DNA from: a virus
Reading direction: 5' to 3' (one strand)
Length of the DNA stretch: 48,350 nucleotides
Virus record (IMG/VR): IMGVR_UViG_3300020027_000013
Span: 1-48,350 of that record
The stretch's first letter is position 1. Each line of letters opens with the position of its first letter. The notes under the pieces are model-generated. The model saw only the letters and a program-made list of their open reading frames with translations, had not been told where the DNA came from and searched no databases. Of this stretch, positions 7,704-35,695 are shown piece by piece. The translations under genes and the position numbers were made by a program.

Positions 7704-9305
7704 TTATACAAAGCTGACGTTAATTTTTTCAACGGCGGTTTTGCTGCCCGCAAGTATTCGATACTTCACAGTATCAAACGTGTGATTTTCGTAATCTTTG
7801 TCCGTTTCGTCGGTTTTTTCTTCGTCGCGCGGAATTGGCGGTAAAAGCTCAATTGTCGCAACGCAGTTGCGCATAAAGTATATGGCCTTACCCTCGCCTA
7901 GAATGGCAGCTTCGAGCCTATCGCGCAACAACTGCAACCCCATTGCGTTAGTGCCCGAGGATTTATCGCTTTCGGTCCAACTAATGCCGACCTTCTGCAT
8001 AGCAACTTCTGTCGTGTCAACGCTAACGTCATTAACGTTTCTAATCTGATTATCGGCGGGTCCGCCTCGCGGTTGCTTCTTAAAGTGTCCTAGCCGCATG
8101 AATTCAATCTCACGGCTTCGAATACCTTCAGCTACCTTCGTAGCCGACATTTTAAGACCTTTGTTCGTGCCTATATCGTCGCTGCCGTACCATTCACCAA
8201 CGCCGATTAAAGTACCGGCCGGAGGGCAAAATACCTTTCCGTCTGGCAGCACAACTTCTTCGCCATTGCATTCGGCAAACCATATGACACAAAACGGCGT
8301 AGTTGAACCCCAATCAAACGCCCGATCAACACGCCAGTAAGCCGGAACCGGAAACACAGGCAAGACGTGTTTATCAGCATGCCACAAATCATCAATAGCA
8401 CCGCCGGCCGTGACTTCCCAATCGCCATACAACCAAGCTCGTCTTAAGTTTGGTTCTTTGATTTTCTCAAGTTCGGCCACATATTCGGCCGTAAGGTAAA
8501 TGTTCTCGCGCCATGAACCAAATATATGAACTTGAGTTTTTACTACGTCAACTTCCTGCTTCGTCTTGGGATCAAAAACCCTAATAATTTCTTTGAACAA
8601 CTGGCCCGGAGCAGCTTTGTTGATAAAGCGGCGCTTAACCCAATTGTGTCCAGGACCGCTTGGGTTCGTAGTAGCGAACACTTCAAGCGGAATCGGCGGT
8701 AATGGTTGGCCGTTGTGGGCATCGTATACACGCCAAACTCGGTCAATGCCTTGAACAGCATTCGGAGTTCCTGCCGTTACTTTCTTATGCGGCGTATGTA
8801 TTTCAGGCGTAAATGAGCTTCGATTTGTTGACATCATTTTATCGTACAAATCGGGGTTAGCGTATTTCGTTAACTCGTTCCAACCTAAGAACGGATATTC
8901 ATGGCCGTGAAAGTCTTCGTAATCTTTTACTTTCTTAGCGTGCCTAAATAACAATTCTTCGCCAGTCGGCCAAACCCATTTATATTCTTGCGCCGATTCT
9001 TTGAACTGCGCCCCATCATTAAATGCGTTAAAGAAGCGCTTAGATTGCGCCACCAAATCAGCAAGGTGCTTATATTCAACGTCGAATATAACGCCGCGCC
9101 AGAATGCACCATAACCAAGACCAACGCGCGAGCGAAAGCGCATTAGCTGTACGATAGTCTTACCAGGCCCGCGAGCGCCGTGATACAGCGTTACATTAGC
9201 CGGACTATCTAATGCAAACTCTTGGCTAGTATTTGGTATTGGCTCCCAAACAATTTCCGGCGGCGGTAGTTCCTGCTTAACGCCTCTAGCGATTGCCGTT
9301 AGCAC
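7704..9305 (-). CDS. terL: Terminase large subunit
   Basis: 533 residues; the motor ATPase and headful or site-specific nuclease that packages DNA. Walker A is GARGPGKT at residues 43-50. A Walker B-like YPFLGWNE lies at 137-144 with the catalytic Glu at the end. The nuclease domain starts with FDWG at 330-333, supplying the first metal-binding Asp. The start is a GTG at 9305..9303 and overlaps the small subunit gene by 20 bases. Gene order small terminase, large terminase, portal supports the call. The packaging type cannot be decided from sequence alone. Confidence 0.92.
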   Translation of the reverse strand: MLTAIARGVKQELPPPEIVWEPIPNTSQEFALDSPANVTLYHGARGPGKTIVQLMRFRSRVGLGYGAFWRGVIFDVEYKHLADLVAQSKRFFNAFNDGAQFKESAQEYKWVWPTGEELLFRHAKKVKDYEDFHGHEYPFLGWNELTKYANPDLYDKMMSTNRSSFTPEIHTPHKKVTAGTPNAVQGIDRVWRVYDAHNGQPLPPIPLEVFATTNPSGPGHNWVKRRFINKAAPGQLFKEIIRVFDPKTKQEVDVVKTQVHIFGSWRENIYLTAEYVAELEKIKEPNLRRAWLYGDWEVTAGGAIDDLWHADKHVLPVFPVPAYWRVDRAFDWGSTTPFCVIWFAECNGEEVVLPDGKVFCPPAGTLIGVGEWYGSDDIGTNKGLKMSATKVAEGIRSREIEFMRLGHFKKQPRGGPADNQIRNVNDVSVDTTEVAMQKVGISWTESDKSSGTNAMGLQLLRDRLEAAILGEGKAIYFMRNCVATIELLPPIPRDEEKTDETDKDYENHTFDTVKYRILAGSKTAVEKINVSFV

Positions 9306-11533: not shown

Positions 11534-11889
11534 GTTTTGGTTACGTCCCAATAAAAACGGTATTTGTTTTTGAATATGGTTCCTATCTTACCGGCCGTAT
11601 CGGTTTGTTGCACGTCGTACCAATACGTTTTATTGCCTGGCAAATCGGCGTTAGCATCCGTCCAAGGAAAAATTACTTGGCCTATGCCAACACCAGGAAC
11701 AACAACCCCAACACTTTGCATTAATTGCATTCCGACAAGCGGACCTAAATCAATATCGGCGTTTGGATTACGGTGCGTGTTCAACGTCAATAAGTAACTA
11801 AACCCGGTAATATCACCAGTAACGTTGATAATGTCCGGTCGCGTATCGCCGCGCTTACGTTCTAATTCACCACCGGTAATTTCGCTCAT
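11530..11889 (-). CDS. Baseplate/fibre-associated protein, BppU-like N-terminal domain
   Basis: 119 residues. The RGDTRPDIINVTGDITGFSY start, the Y-W-Y-D-V-Q-Q-T-D segment near residue 92 and the closing GTIFKNKYRFYWDVTK match a frequent phage beta-domain found in upper baseplate/fibre connector proteins. It lies between the repeat-bearing fibre (4-base overlap) and the FN3-like genes, suggesting that it helps attach or fold the fibre. Confidence 0.6.
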   Translation of the reverse strand: MSEITGGELERKRGDTRPDIINVTGDITGFSYLLTLNTHRNPNADIDLGPLVGMQLMQSVGVVVPGVGIGQVIFPWTDANADLPGNKTYWYDVQQTDTAGKIGTIFKNKYRFYWDVTKT

Positions 11890-13490
11890 AACTCGAATGC
11901 CTGCTCTGAATTCGCAACAGCGATTACATAGACTTGTTCGGAGTTGTTTAGCATTACTACAAACGATTGTATTGAATTCGGATACAACGCACTGACTGGA
12001 ACCAGCAAGCTTGCGTCTTTGCCTTGAATGATATACACGCCGGTCGAAGCCTGCAAGACATGCGCGAGCGCAAGACGCACGTCTTGCCCAATTATTTCAT
12101 ATGTTCCAGCTTCCGCATTTAGCTTAGCAGCATGAACATTAACAACAGGTTTGCCGCTAATTGAATACGTTCCCGCTTCCGCAACAAGCTTCTTAACAAG
12201 ATTAAACGCAATTGTTTGTCCGCTTATTGAATAACTACCGGCAGCAACGCTAATGCGTTTAGCGGAACTTAAACTTGCGGCTTGCCCGGTAATTATATAC
12301 GAACCGGCTTCCGCGTTCATTATCGCGGCGATTGCATCGTAAAGTAGGTTCGCATTTTGGCCCGAAATCGTATACGTACCGACCGACGCAACGAGCTTAC
12401 GAACAGCTTGCAGCGCTACCGCTTGACCTGTTATCGCGTATGCACCTGCTTCGGCAGTCATACGTCGGCCATGTACCAATATGGCGTCATGCCCGGTAAT
12501 CGTGTATGCGCCCACATTGGCGAGCAAGGTTCGCAGCCGGATCAACACGGCAGCGTTTCCGGTAATCCCGTATGACCCCGCTCCGGCCGCTAGGATGCGC
12601 GTAGCGCGCAGCAAAGCAGCTTGCCCCGCAACCGTATACGTCCCAAGCTCGGCCGCAAGCCTACGAGCGGCACGGAGCGCGGCGGCTTGTCCGCTGACGG
12701 CATACGTGCCGGCATCCGCTGCCAATCTTCGCGCTGCTTTGTTTACCGCCGCTTGACCGCTTATAGCATACGAACCCGGAGCGCACGTCATGCTGTAATT
12801 GGTAACAGAAGACGGATTAGCAAAAATCGCTTGCTGAATTATGTAATTGTTATTAGCGGTCGAAGTAAACGAAGCATTGCGAGCAATAGCCGTCGTTTGT
12901 ATTTCGTATTCGCTCGAAACGATTACTTCGGTGCTAACAGAATGTTCGGCGTTAATCGGCTCTGTGAAGTTTGTACCGGCTGCAACATAGCTAGAACCAG
13001 AACCGGCCGCGCTTGCGTTAGCTATGCCACCCCATATCAAAGCATTAGCAGCAGCCGGCGTTAACGTTCCAGTTCCTGCCGTTGCACCATCGGTACCAGT
13101 TCCAACGGCCGTTTGATAACGCCGTTGTCCGGCTTCGAACGGATCGGAACCTATCGTAAGCGTGTTAGTGTGTTCTTGTGCGCTTATACCGCGATAGCCA
13201 ACAACGTTGCTAAAATTCGCCGTTACGGTTGTAAAGGCCGCAACGTTCCAAGCGTAGGCAATGGCAGAAGAAGGTGCAGCACCAGCGGCGTTTTGACGCT
13301 GACGTATTGTGTAGGTGTTGCCGGCAGTATCAGTAACACTAGTTAGCAGGTTAACATCGGAACTATTCCACGTAACCTGCAATACAACAAGACTGCCGGC
13401 AAGAACAGCAACGCCAGCAGCGGCCGGCAGATTGTTAAGAGTAACGCCGGCAGTACCAGCATTCCAAGCTTGCCGGAAACTATAAGACAT
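11886..13490 (-). CDS. Tail fibre-like protein with 22-residue repeats
   Basis: 534 residues. Residues 1-230 form a beta-rich head (AGSLVVLQVTWNSSDVNLLT, then N-T-Y-T-I-R-Q) seen in many phage structural proteins. Residues 236-498 hold about twelve 22-residue repeats with consensus A-x-x-G-[TS]-Y-x-[IV]-[ST]-G-Q-x-A-x-L-x-x-x-R-x-L-x, and a short tail follows. The repeats could form a beta-solenoid or fibrous stalk. No chaperone or esterase domain is visible. It starts a 4-gene overlapping cluster, so it is probably a side fibre or capsid/tail decoration. Confidence 0.65.
   Translation of the reverse strand: MSYSFRQAWNAGTAGVTLNNLPAAAGVAVLAGSLVVLQVTWNSSDVNLLTSVTDTAGNTYTIRQRQNAAGAAPSSAIAYAWNVAAFTTVTANFSNVVGYRGISAQEHTNTLTIGSDPFEAGQRRYQTAVGTGTDGATAGTGTLTPAAANALIWGGIANASAAGSGSSYVAAGTNFTEPINAEHSVSTEVIVSSEYEIQTTAIARNASFTSTANNNYIIQQAIFANPSSVTNYSMTCAPGSYAISGQAAVNKAARRLAADAGTYAVSGQAAALRAARRLAAELGTYTVAGQAALLRATRILAAGAGSYGITGNAAVLIRLRTLLANVGAYTITGHDAILVHGRRMTAEAGAYAITGQAVALQAVRKLVASVGTYTISGQNANLLYDAIAAIMNAEAGSYIITGQAASLSSAKRISVAAGSYSISGQTIAFNLVKKLVAEAGTYSISGKPVVNVHAAKLNAEAGTYEIIGQDVRLALAHVLQASTGVYIIQGKDASLLVPVSALYPNSIQSFVVMLNNSEQVYVIAVANSEQAFEL
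11997..12785 (-). repeat. About 12 tandem 66-base coding repeats
   Basis: The DNA encoding residues 236-498 of the fibre-like gene repeats with a 66-base period (22 codons). The Gly, Tyr and Gly-Gln positions are conserved, but DNA identity between units is only partial, indicating old duplications under protein-level selection. One unit is three residues longer. Confidence 0.8.
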
Positions 13491-18296: not shown

Positions 18297-18815
18297 TTAC
18301 GACCTTGGCAAATTGCCGTTGAGAAAGTTGTCTATATCCATGACGGTATTGTACGGCAATACTCGCATTTGCAGCAAGTAGCGCTCGATTTCGTACACAG
18401 CCTTTTTCCAACCGAATGCCACGGTCCATACAAATCCTTGCGACTCAACGAACATCATGAAATCGCGTTGAACCGGCGTAACGTCAGACAGCCGGCCGTT
18501 CGCACGCTTCATTTCGATGTATAGACCGCTGAATCCGCCGGACTTGACAGGCAAGAAAATATCAGATACGCCGGCCTTAACACCTTCGGCCTTCAACTGC
18601 GCGGCTGCGACCTTATTACCGCGCGCTCCGGCGTTCGGTATGGCATGCAGCCAACGTAAGAACGGAACGGGATCGCCCGTAATCGGCAGCATGTGAGTCG
18701 AACTATAAGCGTTAGCAGCTGCAAAGCCGTAATTCATAGCAATGTTCGCCCAACAAAACACAGCCATTTGTTCGGCGTGCTCGGTTCCGCTTCCCGCTAG
18801 TTGCTCCGGCGTCAT
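18297..18815 (-). CDS. VRR-NUC family nuclease
   Basis: 172 residues. Conserved elements: E-H-A-E-Q with Glu15; IPNAGARG (59-66); GVKAGVSDIFLP (78-89) with Asp85; Y-I-E-M-K with Glu101 and Lys103; and Gln116. This is the PD-(D/E)xK core of VRR-NUC domains, structure-specific DNA nucleases that in phages often act at branched DNA. It starts with an ATGA overlap. It probably processes replication or recombination intermediates, possibly together with the Spo11-like protein encoded upstream. Confidence 0.85.
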   Translation of the reverse strand: MTPEQLAGSGTEHAEQMAVFCWANIAMNYGFAAANAYSSTHMLPITGDPVPFLRWLHAIPNAGARGNKVAAAQLKAEGVKAGVSDIFLPVKSGGFSGLYIEMKRANGRLSDVTPVQRDFMMFVESQGFVWTVAFGWKKAVYEIERYLLQMRVLPYNTVMDIDNFLNGNLPRS

Positions 18816-21043: not shown

Positions 21044-22078
21044 TCACACTTCAGACATATCGTCTTCGTGTTCGCCGTCGTAAACCCGGCCGTCGCCTTC
21101 GGCAATCTCGCCAACGAACGCAACCGCCTTACGCAAGTCAAACCGGTCAGCATTGAACTGACGCACGCGAACGTTCCATAGCTCGCGGTTATCGTCAGTA
21201 TCGAGAATCAAATCTACTTCGTCTTGAATCAAGGCCGAAATTACTTCCGGTGTCAACGCGTCTAATTCCCAAGACTCCGAGCCGAATTCTTCAACGTATT
21301 GCCCGGCGCGACTGTCGGTCAGCTTAGCGAAATTGGGCGGCGGGTTGTATTGCTCAACTTGATCCATGTTGAGCGCGAGCCGCTTGACTTCGACGTATGA
21401 GCCGCTGAATAGCGACAGCCGGTCGCAATTGTCGCGCGTCATATCCATACCGCTTGGATCATGGTCGCCCAAGTGCAACACAAGCGTTTCTTGATTGCCA
21501 TGCTCGCGGCGGTATTGAATTCTTTTCCCGGCGGCGTATAGCTCCGACTGCGAAGCGTAACCTTTGCATGCGAAGTAATTAATGTCCCATAGACGGCAAA
21601 CGCGCTCAACAACGCCGACTAGTGCATCCTTCTCGATCCACACTTCGAGCCGCACCGATTGGTTTTCCCAAAAATCAATCCGATAACGCTGATTGAGCTT
21701 GGCTATCGCGTCCGCTGGGTCTTCATACGTCGTATGCCCGCGCAAGAAGCGCGTTCGATCTTCGATTGAGTCCCAATCAATCAAGCCTGCTAAGCGTGCG
21801 TCGCTAACAACGTTTCCAAGCATGTCATAATTAGACTCGGCGTTAATCGTCGCAACGGCCCATCCTTCTGGGTCCGTTTCCTTGTCAACCCGACGCCAGC
21901 GGCTCTTGACCAACGCGAAGCGGTCAACGAACAAGTCGCGCGCGACGAACTGGTAATACAACTGTCGTAGCGTCAGCGTTAGCCCCTTGCGTTGATAGTG
22001 CGTCAGTATATCGTTCGCGTGCTGTATGACTAGCCGCGACTTATGATGAAAGTTCTTGTTTATAAATGGTTCGCGCAC
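21044..22078 (-). CDS. Spo11/topoisomerase VI-A-like TOPRIM protein
   Basis: 344 residues, GTG start after GAGG. Three blocks follow the type IIB topoisomerase A-subunit plan: LTLRQLYYQFVARDL (35-49), with a Tyr pair at 41-42 placed like the catalytic Tyr of the winged-helix domain; VWIEKDALVGVVE (146-158), with Glu149 as TOPRIM acid; and LHLGDHDPSGMDM (201-213), with Asp205 and Asp207. YFACKGYASQSELY between them fits the family. No B-subunit ATPase is encoded here, so it resembles stand-alone mini-A forms reported on mobile elements. It could cut or nick DNA during replication or recombination; activity is inferred. Confidence 0.7.
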   Translation of the reverse strand: MREPFINKNFHHKSRLVIQHANDILTHYQRKGLTLTLRQLYYQFVARDLFVDRFALVKSRWRRVDKETDPEGWAVATINAESNYDMLGNVVSDARLAGLIDWDSIEDRTRFLRGHTTYEDPADAIAKLNQRYRIDFWENQSVRLEVWIEKDALVGVVERVCRLWDINYFACKGYASQSELYAAGKRIQYRREHGNQETLVLHLGDHDPSGMDMTRDNCDRLSLFSGSYVEVKRLALNMDQVEQYNPPPNFAKLTDSRAGQYVEEFGSESWELDALTPEVISALIQDEVDLILDTDDNRELWNVRVRQFNADRFDLRKAVAFVGEIAEGDGRVYDGEHEDDMSEV

Positions 22079-25679: not shown

Positions 25680-28007
25680 TCAAAGCCCGAATGCGCGAGG
25701 AATCGCTACCATATAGCAAGCGGCCGAGCAACCGTATTTTGTAGTAAGAGTCAATTTAGCTACTTCCTGAATATCACCGCGTTCTACCAGGGTCTTTAGA
25801 GCACGCTTGATAGCGAAGCTCGCACCCATCTTATCTTTCTTGAATTCGGCTTGCTGACATAGTTTCTTGTGCAAGAAGCTATAAGGTATGATCTTTTCAG
25901 CATGCAGCAGCGGCGAGCCTACTTTGTAGCCTTCTAACTCCGACCAAGGCCGTATTAAGTATTCGCGAACCGATTTAATGCAGCGCGACAACTGCCGCAT
26001 TTCGTCGTTATCAATGCCTATCTCCCCGGCGTCAAAACGACTTAGCAGGTTGCGCACGTCAGCAACAATAATTCCGAGTGCCCAATTGGCGGCGTGCTCG
26101 TCTATCGTCGGTTCGTAAGGGTTTAGACCGATAGCAACGACGGCGGCGAGCTTCAACGCTTTAATGTGGGCGCGATTCCAAAGATGTCGGCGTATTTCGC
26201 GCTCAGCGCTATTTATATTTGCGTCACAATGCTTATCAAATTGATCGAATAACTTTTGTGCAACAGCATCGGTGCGAACATGAATCGCTTTGTGTTGACT
26301 GTTCAAGCTTAAAGCGTGCGCACATAACGAACCAATTTGTTCCACTAATTCAAACGATGGTTGTACGGTTATATGCGCAGGATTTAATTCCGGTCTATCG
26401 CCGCGATACTCAATAACAGTAATGCGCGGTAGCAAGCCTTCGCTAATCATACTTTCATTGAGTGTTTCGTAAAAGCGTTCCGGTGTCGATTCACCTAACA
26501 ATGAAAACGCCGGAGCCATAATCGTTGATGTGTTCTTTTCTTTATCGCTATAGATTGTTGGTCTTAATAACTTGCCTTCGCCGCTTTTATTGTATAGATC
26601 AAGCATCATGCGGCGCAAGCCTAGAAGATGCGGCGCAGCATGCTGTGACGACATTTGCGAAAGCATTAAACCAAACTCGCCAACAATGCTCACAAAGCTG
26701 CACGATGTTTTCGACATATACTTTGTCAACGCTTGCGCCGAGCTAATTTCGGCCGGTCCTACGAATTCCGCCGCGCTAGGAACAGTTCGAATAACAGCGC
26801 CGATAAGTTTGTCTATGCCACTCGCAATTGCTTCTTTACCTGTTCCCGTTGGCGCTAACAACAGCACATATTGATTAAGGCCGGTTCCACTAACGTTATA
26901 AGCTCGGCCAACAATACCCGACAGAAACCCTATAGCGCCCGCTATAGCAATTTCTGGAACCGGACGCGGCGCAGCATCGTAAATGAATTGCGCCAGCATG
27001 CCGACAAGTCCGGGTGGCGATGTGTACGGATTCGGCAAGCTAGGCGGAACTGCCGGAATTGCGCCAAGCGTTATCTTCGCCGCCTTGCTGATTTCTACAG
27101 CGTCAGCAATGGCATTACGCAAGCCTTCGATATCGACCGGCGGTAACATTCGGTCGAAGCACTTGTTTAGCATATAATTAATGTAGTCTTGCCGACGTGC
27201 TTTCGGTCGCAAGCCTAACGACGAATTTTGAAATATGCGCTGTATTTGTTCTTTGTTTTGAGTATAGAACGCGATTATATCGACTAGTGCAAAGTCTGCT
27301 TCCGATTGCGACGGATAAAGCGTTTCCCATTCGCCGCCATACAAGCTCTTAAACTTATCACCGTTTGCAGCAGCCAAGGCTTTCGCGATAATGTCTTGAT
27401 CCCGTTCCGTTGCTTGCGCTGTACCGCTGTACATTTCACCGGCAAGATTGCGAATCCCGCCCATCTGTTCCCACAATGCTGAAACGAGTTGCGAGCAGTC
27501 GCTAATTGGCGCTTCGCGGTAAACATCGCCGGTCATTGTCATGTAGCGTTCTTTCGAATAGATTTCAATGGCGCTACGTTTACGACCATTCGGAACAACG
27601 CCGCGAACAATTAAGTGCAAGCCATTGCCGCTAGGCGAGCGTTCGGCGTAGCCTTGAAATTCACTATAGACCTTCAATTGCCGATCTAGAATAGCTTGCG
27701 GGTTGTCGTGCTTAAGCGATCCGTCTGCTTTCTTTTCGTAAGGGTCGTCTAGATCAATGAAGCAATAAGGGTCTTGCTCCGACAGAATGAAGCCGATTCC
27801 GTTATACCAGTCTGTCGACAAAGCGGCATTAACTGATTCGTCAAACGTTGACCATGTTTCGGAATCAGTGACGCTAGCTAAGCGTCCGTTGCGAGCACAG
27901 TATGGAACCTTCGTTGGCTTCGGGCTTTCGGTATCTTCATACCGCCACACGCACCACGAACGAAACAACCGCATTTCGTTCGGTACATTGTAGAACTTGC
28001 TTTGCAT
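25680..28007 (-). CDS. Primase-polymerase/helicase (NrS-1-like AEP with DUF3987-like ATPase)
   Basis: 775 residues. N-terminal archaeo-eukaryotic primase fold: motif I FIDLDD (83-88, Asp85 and Asp87), motif II SPSGNGLHLIV (124-134, His131), motif III region IEIYSKERYMTMTGD (147-161). C-terminal P-loop ATPase: LLLAPTGTGKEA with Lys391, resembling DUF3987-type helicases. It would prime and unwind at the origin. It follows the repressor gene by 32 bases. The start ATG lies in a perfect inverted repeat and no Shine-Dalgarno is visible, so translation may be controlled. Confidence 0.8.
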   Translation of the reverse strand: MQSKFYNVPNEMRLFRSWCVWRYEDTESPKPTKVPYCARNGRLASVTDSETWSTFDESVNAALSTDWYNGIGFILSEQDPYCFIDLDDPYEKKADGSLKHDNPQAILDRQLKVYSEFQGYAERSPSGNGLHLIVRGVVPNGRKRSAIEIYSKERYMTMTGDVYREAPISDCSQLVSALWEQMGGIRNLAGEMYSGTAQATERDQDIIAKALAAANGDKFKSLYGGEWETLYPSQSEADFALVDIIAFYTQNKEQIQRIFQNSSLGLRPKARRQDYINYMLNKCFDRMLPPVDIEGLRNAIADAVEISKAAKITLGAIPAVPPSLPNPYTSPPGLVGMLAQFIYDAAPRPVPEIAIAGAIGFLSGIVGRAYNVSGTGLNQYVLLLAPTGTGKEAIASGIDKLIGAVIRTVPSAAEFVGPAEISSAQALTKYMSKTSCSFVSIVGEFGLMLSQMSSQHAAPHLLGLRRMMLDLYNKSGEGKLLRPTIYSDKEKNTSTIMAPAFSLLGESTPERFYETLNESMISEGLLPRITVIEYRGDRPELNPAHITVQPSFELVEQIGSLCAHALSLNSQHKAIHVRTDAVAQKLFDQFDKHCDANINSAEREIRRHLWNRAHIKALKLAAVVAIGLNPYEPTIDEHAANWALGIIVADVRNLLSRFDAGEIGIDNDEMRQLSRCIKSVREYLIRPWSELEGYKVGSPLLHAEKIIPYSFLHKKLCQQAEFKKDKMGASFAIKRALKTLVERGDIQEVAKLTLTTKYGCSAACYMVAIPRAFGL

Positions 28008-34157: not shown

Positions 34158-34622
34158 ATGCAAAAAAAACTAGAATTACGCAATCCGAACGGGTGTCTAA
34201 ACATGGCACACGAAGACGAACCGATTTTTGTATTACGTGGCAATGACGAATTAGCCGCAGAAACAGTTTACTATTGGGCGGAATCTTATCGAATTAACAA
34301 AAAAGCAGAAGGTCAATGGACCGAAGCCAGGCAAGCGAAATACGCCGAAGCGATTCAATTAATCAACGAAATGAAAAGCTGGCAACAGCTTAAACAAGCT
34401 GGTTTGAATCCCGTTAACGATCCGTGGGGAAAGAAATTTGCCGAAGCGGTTATAATCACCGATTCAAGCGGCGTTCTACAAAAAGTTTTAATCGACGGCT
34501 TTCCAATTAGCGACGGAAATATACAAAAAGCCAATGTGAAAGTTCGACTAACAGAAGTTCTAACGTTAGAGCTTTTCATTAGCTGCAAGAAAATCGAAAC
34601 AATGACGGTGGATAACAAATGA
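34158..34622 (+). CDS. Hypothetical replication-module protein
   Basis: 154 residues from the ATG at 34158 (GGAG nine bases upstream; longer starts overlap the previous gene). VLRGNDELAAETVYYWAESY near residues 27-46 is a segment seen in many small phage proteins. Helices follow, then a beta-rich C-terminus. ATGA overlap with the clamp-like gene. Function unknown. Confidence 0.65.
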   Translation: MQKKLELRNPNGCLNMAHEDEPIFVLRGNDELAAETVYYWAESYRINKKAEGQWTEARQAKYAEAIQLINEMKSWQQLKQAGLNPVNDPWGKKFAEAVIITDSSGVLQKVLIDGFPISDGNIQKANVKVRLTEVLTLELFISCKKIETMTVDNK

Positions 34623-35695
34623 CCGCCATAGACAAAGGTATACCGCCACCAGAAGCCAACAAGAAGGCTTCAAAGCGTGGTCGTAAGAAGAAGATTACAG
34701 AGCCGCAAAGCACGACAGCGGCGGGACTTATTAAGGCGCTACAATTTGTCGGTCTAGCACAGCGCTCGGCTGGAACGTCACATCAAACACATTGCCTAAT
34801 GAACAATGGTTGGTGTGTCGCATTTGACGAAGTGTTTACTATCGGTTGCAAGATTGAAGAAAATATATCAGCGTGCCCAAAAACTCAATACCTGTTAGAC
34901 GCGCTGCAAAAGTGCGGCGAACAAATTGCCATAGCGCAACTATCTGAATACGTCTTGTCTGTCAAGTCCGGTAAGTTCAAAGCGTCTATACCCTGCGTTG
35001 GGTTCGACGCGGTTCCAGCAACCGGGCCGGATGCCCCTATAGCAGTCATTACAGACGAGCTGCGAGCCGGCTTCGAGACGTGCGGTTGGTTGGTACACGA
35101 AGGCGAGCAAGAAGCCTATAAAGCCGCCCTACTACTTCAAGGCGGGTCGATTGTGGGAAGCAACGGTTCTGTTTTGCTGGAATACTGGCACGGCATAGAT
35201 TTGCCCCCAGGGTTGCTTATTCCGTCGAAAGCTGTCAACGCAATCGTCAAGATAAAGAAGCCTTTAACTCGCTTTGGATTCTCAGCAACGTCAGCAACTT
35301 TTTACTTTGACGATGAAAGCTTTTTAAAGACACAACTGTTTGACGCTCGATACCCGAATTACAAAGCGGTGTTTGATAAAGGCGGTTTAATCGAAGCAGC
35401 GCATTTACCTACGGATTTCTTCAAAGGCTTGCAAGCCGTGCGTTCTTTCAGTGAAGACAAGTTTGTCTTTTTAACTGGTGATAAGATACAATCGAACACG
35501 CAAGAAGAACTAGGCGCGACATACGATCTACCTGGCATTCCAATCAACTTTGCATTTAATCAAGAAATGCTAGCAGCAATTGAACCGCACTTTAAGAGCG
35601 TGGCTTTCCATGAAGCAGCCGCATATTTTAAAAACGGCAAAGTGCGCGGCGTGATAATGGGCGGCTCGCATTACGAAGCTAATGCGAGTCGTTGA
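34619..35695 (+). CDS. Sliding-clamp-like protein (DNA polymerase III beta-like)
   Basis: 358 residues. After a basic tail (residues 10-35), the sequence resembles a clamp plan: CPKTQYLLDALQKCGEQIAI with AQLSEYVLSVKSGKFKASIP (first domain end), then LIPSKAVNAIVKIKKPLTRF and LFDARYPNYKAVFD (second domain, including the D-x-R-Y-P-N/D-Y motif typical of beta clamps), and VRSFSEDKFVFL. It overlaps the polymerase gene by 14 bases, which supports a processivity role. The third domain is less clear. Confidence 0.65.
   Translation: MTAIDKGIPPPEANKKASKRGRKKKITEPQSTTAAGLIKALQFVGLAQRSAGTSHQTHCLMNNGWCVAFDEVFTIGCKIEENISACPKTQYLLDALQKCGEQIAIAQLSEYVLSVKSGKFKASIPCVGFDAVPATGPDAPIAVITDELRAGFETCGWLVHEGEQEAYKAALLLQGGSIVGSNGSVLLEYWHGIDLPPGLLIPSKAVNAIVKIKKPLTRFGFSATSATFYFDDESFLKTQLFDARYPNYKAVFDKGGLIEAAHLPTDFFKGLQAVRSFSEDKFVFLTGDKIQSNTQEELGATYDLPGIPINFAFNQEMLAAIEPHFKSVAFHEAAAYFKNGKVRGVIMGGSHYEANASR

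Follow-up and report, generated by a model that had tools for sequence, protein, structure and literature searches.

A stand-alone Mini-A protein, related to the A subunit of topoisomerase VI and encoded without a B subunit in a virus record with siphovirus genes

The DNA analyzed here (the window) is a virus record of 48,350 bases that carries siphovirus head, tail and replication genes. Tail genes are found at both of its ends, and much of its gene order agrees with that of Variovorax phage VCLv21, a complete genome of 45 kb. The record looks like the near-complete, circularly permuted genome of a siphovirus, the portal protein of which is nearest to those of Xanthomonas phage XAJ2 and of the Pseudomonas phage 73 group. 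The gene under study is an open reading frame of 344 codons on the minus strand (Table 1), which begins with GTG, ends with TGA and is preceded by a purine-rich AGAGG at a spacing of 7 nt from the start codon. Its translation contains the motifs named in the preliminary description (a Tyr-Tyr block, a TOPRIM glutamate and GDHDPSG), and the residue numbers assigned there to Y41, Y42, E149, D205 and D207 were found to be correct. The third-position G+C content of the gene is 0.61, and that of the VRR-NUC-like nuclease gene is 0.60; the replication and portal genes that were examined have values of 0.48-0.51.

Other genes in the window were also inspected. An open reading frame of 534 amino acids (11886-13490, minus strand) has no PHROG match and only a sub-threshold match to the Pfam BslA family. 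A sliding-clamp-like protein (PHROG 947) is encoded on the plus strand at 34619-35695, directly before a DNA polymerase gene (PHROG 1252), the product of which was matched by no Pfam model at E ≤ 0.01. A Pfam ‘Catalase’ match in the window (E = 0.038) was taken as chance.

Table 1. Positions in the window of the Mini-A gene, of its motifs and of two further genes
Feature	Position	Strand	Evidence
Mini-A gene (Top6A/Spo11-like, stand-alone, 344 aa)	21044..22078	-	PHROG 6247; tblastn to NP1 gp49; structure search
Winged-helix block LTLRQLYY (residues 35-42), which includes Arg38 and the putative catalytic Tyr42	21953..21976	-	Invariance; hhalign to TLRELYY
Glu149, TOPRIM glutamate	21632..21634	-	Invariant; hhalign to the Top6A TOPRIM Glu region
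Residues 204-210, GDHDPSG, TOPRIM DxD block (Asp205, Asp207)	21449..21469	-	Invariant; aligned with Top6A DxDPW
Residues 270-275, WELDAL, candidate fourth-acid site (Glu271)	21254..21271	-	W270-A274 invariant in 116 rows
Residues 54-76, insert absent from most relatives	21851..21919	-	23-row alignment; pLDDT
VRR-NUC-like nuclease	18297..18815	-	Pfam score of 23.4 bits, just under the cut-off of 23.8; 2.2 kb from Mini-A
Primase/helicase, NrS-1-type domain (PHROG 3022)	25680..28007	-	

The family to which the protein belongs was identified by profile and sequence searches. The protein matched PHROG 6247 (“DNA topoisomerase”) with an E-value of 9.8e-98; searches of Pfam and NCBIfam gave no real match, and a Foldseek search of BFVD returned no useful viral match. 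Relatives are encoded in 75 phage records detected by tblastn, all of them less than 60% identical to the window protein and many annotated as DNA topoisomerase; gp49 of Pseudomonas phage NP1 was 40% identical across 96% of the query (E = 2e-65). Relatives were also found in 25 viral contigs and in no fewer than 127 contigs from bacteria or archaea. The highest identity was approximately 47% for relatives from named phages and approximately 54% for those from viral contigs and prokaryotes. In a quick tree of 109 distinct sequences the window protein was placed with that of VCLv21, with a support value of 87 that is not decisive, in surroundings that were mostly proteobacterial.

Mini-A proteins were reportedly described by Takahashi et al. 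in 2020 (NAR Genom Bioinform 2:lqz021). The class is known here through reviews (PMC7614492, PMC8185306, PMC8084294, PMC11302465), which describe truncated Top6A homologs of bacteriophages and archaeal viruses that have no B subunit. These A-subunit relatives of mobile elements and viruses are listed as having no known function (PMC8185306, PMC11302465, PMC8084294), and the protein of phage NP1 is the example drawn for the family (PMC7614492 Fig. 4). The literature searched yielded no assay of the activity of any Mini-A protein. The homology to NP1 gp49, the PHROG 6247 match and the reviews all agree with the original suggestion of a stand-alone mini-A protein of the kind reported from mobile elements, and the window protein almost certainly belongs to the Mini-A family. 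The gene is an ordinary, if divergent, new member of a family that is already described and functionally open, and it is less surprising than at first reading because that family is already in the literature.

The window protein differs from the Mini-A proteins of the reviews in its divergent sequence and in the insert at residues 54-76. Comparable inserts occur only in the relatives L005 and L006 of a 23-row alignment, and residues 55-63, which are part of the insert, have pLDDT values below 50 in the AlphaFold2 model of the window protein. Most relatives are approximately 290-315 amino acids long as aligned rows, the window protein has 344 including the insert, and Top6A open frames have approximately 350-397. 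One relative (L016, 7986-9377) extends approximately 150 residues past the usual C-terminus (approximately 463 amino acids from the Met at 7986) and possibly carries a fused domain.

Searches of the PDB with single sequences and with profiles gave nothing useful at the sequence level, and no Top6A or Spo11 chain was matched directly; the link to Top6A therefore rests on profiles and structure. A Mini-A profile was aligned by hhalign to that of 19 archaeal Top6A sequences with a score of 34.4, compared with a maximum of 21.9 and a mean of 16.0 for 60 column-shuffled profiles and 13.2 for the reversed Mini-A profile against Top6A. E-values for the comparison with archaeal Top6A were 0.001-0.002, with low probabilities of 14-20%. 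The aligned core places TLRQLYY of Mini-A against TLRELYY of Top6A, and in longer alignments the VEK and GDHDPSG blocks fall on the TOPRIM blocks of Top6A. TP6A_N was the Pfam family matched most often by Mini-A proteins, albeit by six of 46 members and weakly in each case.

Structure models were produced with AlphaFold2 for the window protein (pLDDT 77) and for a family representative, L102 (pLDDT 91). When the window protein model was compared with the PDB by Foldseek, Top6A of M. mazei was ranked first (E = 4e-3, probability 1.00). The first three matches of the L102 model were the Top6A structures of M. jannaschii (1d3y) and M. mazei (9o7o), with E-values of 1e-4, 4.9e-4 and 9.9e-4 and a probability of 1.00, and no other match fell below 1e-3. 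The TM-scores against Top6A were low (0.3-0.4, with an rmsd of 9-16 Å), for which a differing relative placement of the two domains may be a reason. A Top6A-like fold is supported by these models, with Top6A rather than an unrelated TOPRIM protein leading the structure search. Family search, profile comparison and structure search thus bear out the stand-alone Top6A/Spo11-like identity that had been proposed for the gene. Mini-A and Top6A have in common a TLR(E/Q)LYY winged helix, a TOPRIM glutamate and a DxDP block, in the same order and fold; the window protein differs in being shorter before the tyrosine block, in its C-terminal part, in having no Top6B partner and in a sequence too distant for direct matches. 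Two archaeal genomes among those searched (L196 and L197) encode a second, divergent Top6A-like protein (430-438 amino acids, with a VSTKRDCYYML block) beside a normal Top6A.

A TOPRIM domain is also found in nucleases such as JetD/MksG and GajA, and the window protein might likewise hydrolyze DNA directly, with its tyrosine serving a structural role. Among TOPRIM proteins, JetD is distantly related to Top6A (E = 5.7e-9 by hhalign between the two), which makes this reading conceivable. However, the hhalign score of Mini-A against JetD (19.6, E = 0.15) was inside the range of the shuffled controls, the structure search was led by Top6A and not by JetD or GajA, and no PADLOC defense model was matched. 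Arg38 and Tyr42 are, moreover, invariant at the spacing seen in Top6A, and a plain nuclease is considered improbable.

The conservation of the putative active site was examined in two alignments. In 23 sequences aligned without a motif filter, R38, Y42, E149, D205, D207 and E271 never vary, and one row has Phe in place of Y41. The same six residues are present in 116 of 116 rows of a larger alignment (some of them duplicates; 109 distinct sequences), the row filter for which required R38 and D207 and restricted the residues allowed at positions 42 and 205, such that E149 and E271 are the unbiased part of this count. Y41 is Phe or His in five of the 116 rows. The preliminary description had named Tyr41 and Tyr42 together as residues to mutate; of the two, Tyr42 is the invariant position and Tyr41 varies. 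Tyr42, not Tyr41, is accordingly the likely nucleophile as judged by conservation.

Top6A of M. mazei uses Y106 as its nucleophile and E202, D254 and D256 as its metal-binding acids (PMC13040014). That enzyme also has a clasp between R102 and E342 that keeps the tyrosine off the DNA, and the E342Q variant cleaves far more; the clasp acts jointly with the transducer stalk of the B subunit (PMC13040014). Arg38 of the window protein is located four residues before Tyr42, the same spacing as between R102 and Y106. Glu271, in WELDAL, was likened by eye to E342 in the K(S/A)EQQAL motif of Top6A, and JetD has a similar LEQE; a C-terminal profile comparison of Mini-A with Top6A, which would place Glu271 on E342, did not rise above the shuffled controls. 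The clasp arginine thus appears to be retained as Arg38, and Glu271 is a candidate for the clasp glutamate. A covalent mechanism through Tyr42 appears quite likely.

The preliminary description had also stated that no GHKL-type B subunit is encoded. Profile searches with PF13589 and PF02518, both of which were positive in 14 of 14 control genomes, detected no GHKL ATPase in the window, and this absence is meaningful because the genome looks near-complete. PF13589 was also absent from the 33 other Mini-A virus records searched (34 of 34 with the window included), several of which are complete phage genomes. The statement therefore held beyond the window, and the absence of a B subunit is a trait of the Mini-A family.

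The genes that surround Mini-A were compared across its loci. Clustering of neighborhoods by blastp, a weak comparison with crude ORF picking, revealed no conserved partner gene near Mini-A in most loci. Among annotated phages the neighbors vary and include ligase and Sak4, polymerase, Cas4 exonuclease, ThyX, endonuclease V and NUDIX genes. In phage NP1 (which also has queuosine-type biosynthesis genes) Mini-A has an ATP-dependent ligase gene on one side and is directly followed by Sak4, and a Cas4 exonuclease is encoded not far away; in Microbacterium phage Fizzles the gene immediately before Mini-A encodes a Cas4 exonuclease. It is conceivable that a B-like partner from the phage or its host has escaped detection and that the two together form a full type IIB topoisomerase, as the clasp arginine is kept though no B subunit is seen. 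However, the lack of any GHKL protein in the 34 virus records and the absence of a conserved gene among the differing neighbors argue against this, and such a partner has little likelihood.

The window encodes a Cas4-type exonuclease, Sak4 and a VRR-NUC nuclease, and a pathway was considered in which Mini-A makes breaks that are resected by the Cas4-type exonuclease and annealed by Sak4, with a contribution from VRR-NUC. The presence of all three genes in the window, and the arrangements in NP1 and Fizzles, are consistent with such a recombination pathway. However, a Cas4 exonuclease is present in eight of the 34 Mini-A records, Sak4 in seven (two of these weak) and VRR-NUC in five, counts that stand without a random baseline, as the 14 random viral contigs collected as background were mostly short and were set aside. 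Furthermore, Sak4 is present in 13 of 13 tested relatives that share the primase of the window and do not have Mini-A, and VRR-NUC is kept in four of four such relatives examined. The recombination pathway is therefore unlikely, and the recombination cassette was dropped as a link to Mini-A for want of a consistent association. The functional link to the neighboring VRR-NUC nuclease that had been suggested from the window did not survive these counts, and a VRR-NUC pathway as a conserved link was ruled out.

The distribution of Mini-A was also followed within its own lineage. It was found in two of 24 relatives identified by primase or portal, both of them through the portal. Mini-A is thus an accessory gene in this lineage, where the cassette for replication and recombination functions in its absence.

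The best overall explanation for these observations is probably that the window protein is the A module of a type IIB topoisomerase, free of a B subunit, that makes covalent breaks between Tyr42 and DNA. Mini-A would then be a DNA-cleaving module in which a winged helix carrying the catalytic tyrosine is combined with a TOPRIM metal site, and it would need no GHKL subunit to work. It would act as a homodimer, in which the metal-bound Glu149, Asp205 and Asp207 of one protomer hold a backbone phosphate for attack by Tyr42 of the other; both strands would be broken with a 5'-phosphotyrosyl linkage, as happens with Top6A and Spo11. The substrate may be bent or supercoiled phage DNA, encountered during replication or recombination. 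As there is no ATPase gate, there would be no ATP-coupled strand passage, and the likely output would be either a Spo11-like break or reversible, ATP-independent cleavage and resealing.

Between these outputs, the making of breaks is tentatively, and only slightly, favored over relaxation as the main role. Mini-A could instead be an ATP-independent nicking-closing or relaxing enzyme that breaks and reseals phage DNA and relieves supercoils in replication without leaving a lasting break. Its active site is the same as that of a religating topoisomerase, several of its neighbors are replication or nucleotide-metabolism genes, and a review reports ATP-independent DNA relaxation by topoisomerase VIII of M. 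marina (PMC7614492). However, the B subunit for capture of a second duplex is lacking, and Mini-A is missing from close relatives that have the same replication cassette; a relaxing role is possible but is considered the less likely of the two.

Both Spo11, which acts in meiosis with B-like partners, and topoisomerase VI depend on B subunits for control over the timing of DNA cutting. The retention of the clasp arginine at Arg38, with Glu271 perhaps its partner, suggests that cleavage could be restrained until the geometry of the DNA or another protein triggers it. A more speculative and rather doubtful extension is that Mini-A has kept an Arg38-Glu271 clasp and lost the ATPase that ordinarily assists in its opening, and would make breaks on its own under the control of DNA bending or of a trigger other than a GHKL protein; if true, phages would have the Spo11 reaction in a minimal form that needs no B subunit. 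Mini-A would resemble Spo11 as an A-module break maker with the same tyrosine and TOPRIM logic (PMC13040014), and it differs in that no comparable B-like partner is seen and that no Spo11 chain of the PDB was matched by sequence.

With its full set of active-site residues, a phage Mini-A would allow a simple test of whether an A module alone cuts DNA and whether a clasp alone restrains it. The window gene adds to the family a member that is accessory in its lineage. Relatives occur in 75 phage records and at least 127 contigs of prokaryotes, and the role of so widespread a family bears on many phages. Mini-A has been described as close to topoisomerase VIII (PMC8185306), which is likewise a type IIB enzyme of mobile elements but has both A and B parts, where the window protein has the A part only. 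One archaeal locus (L198) contains an open frame of more than 800 amino acids that is matched in part by the Top6A TOPRIM model and may be a fusion of A and B parts similar to topoisomerase VIII.
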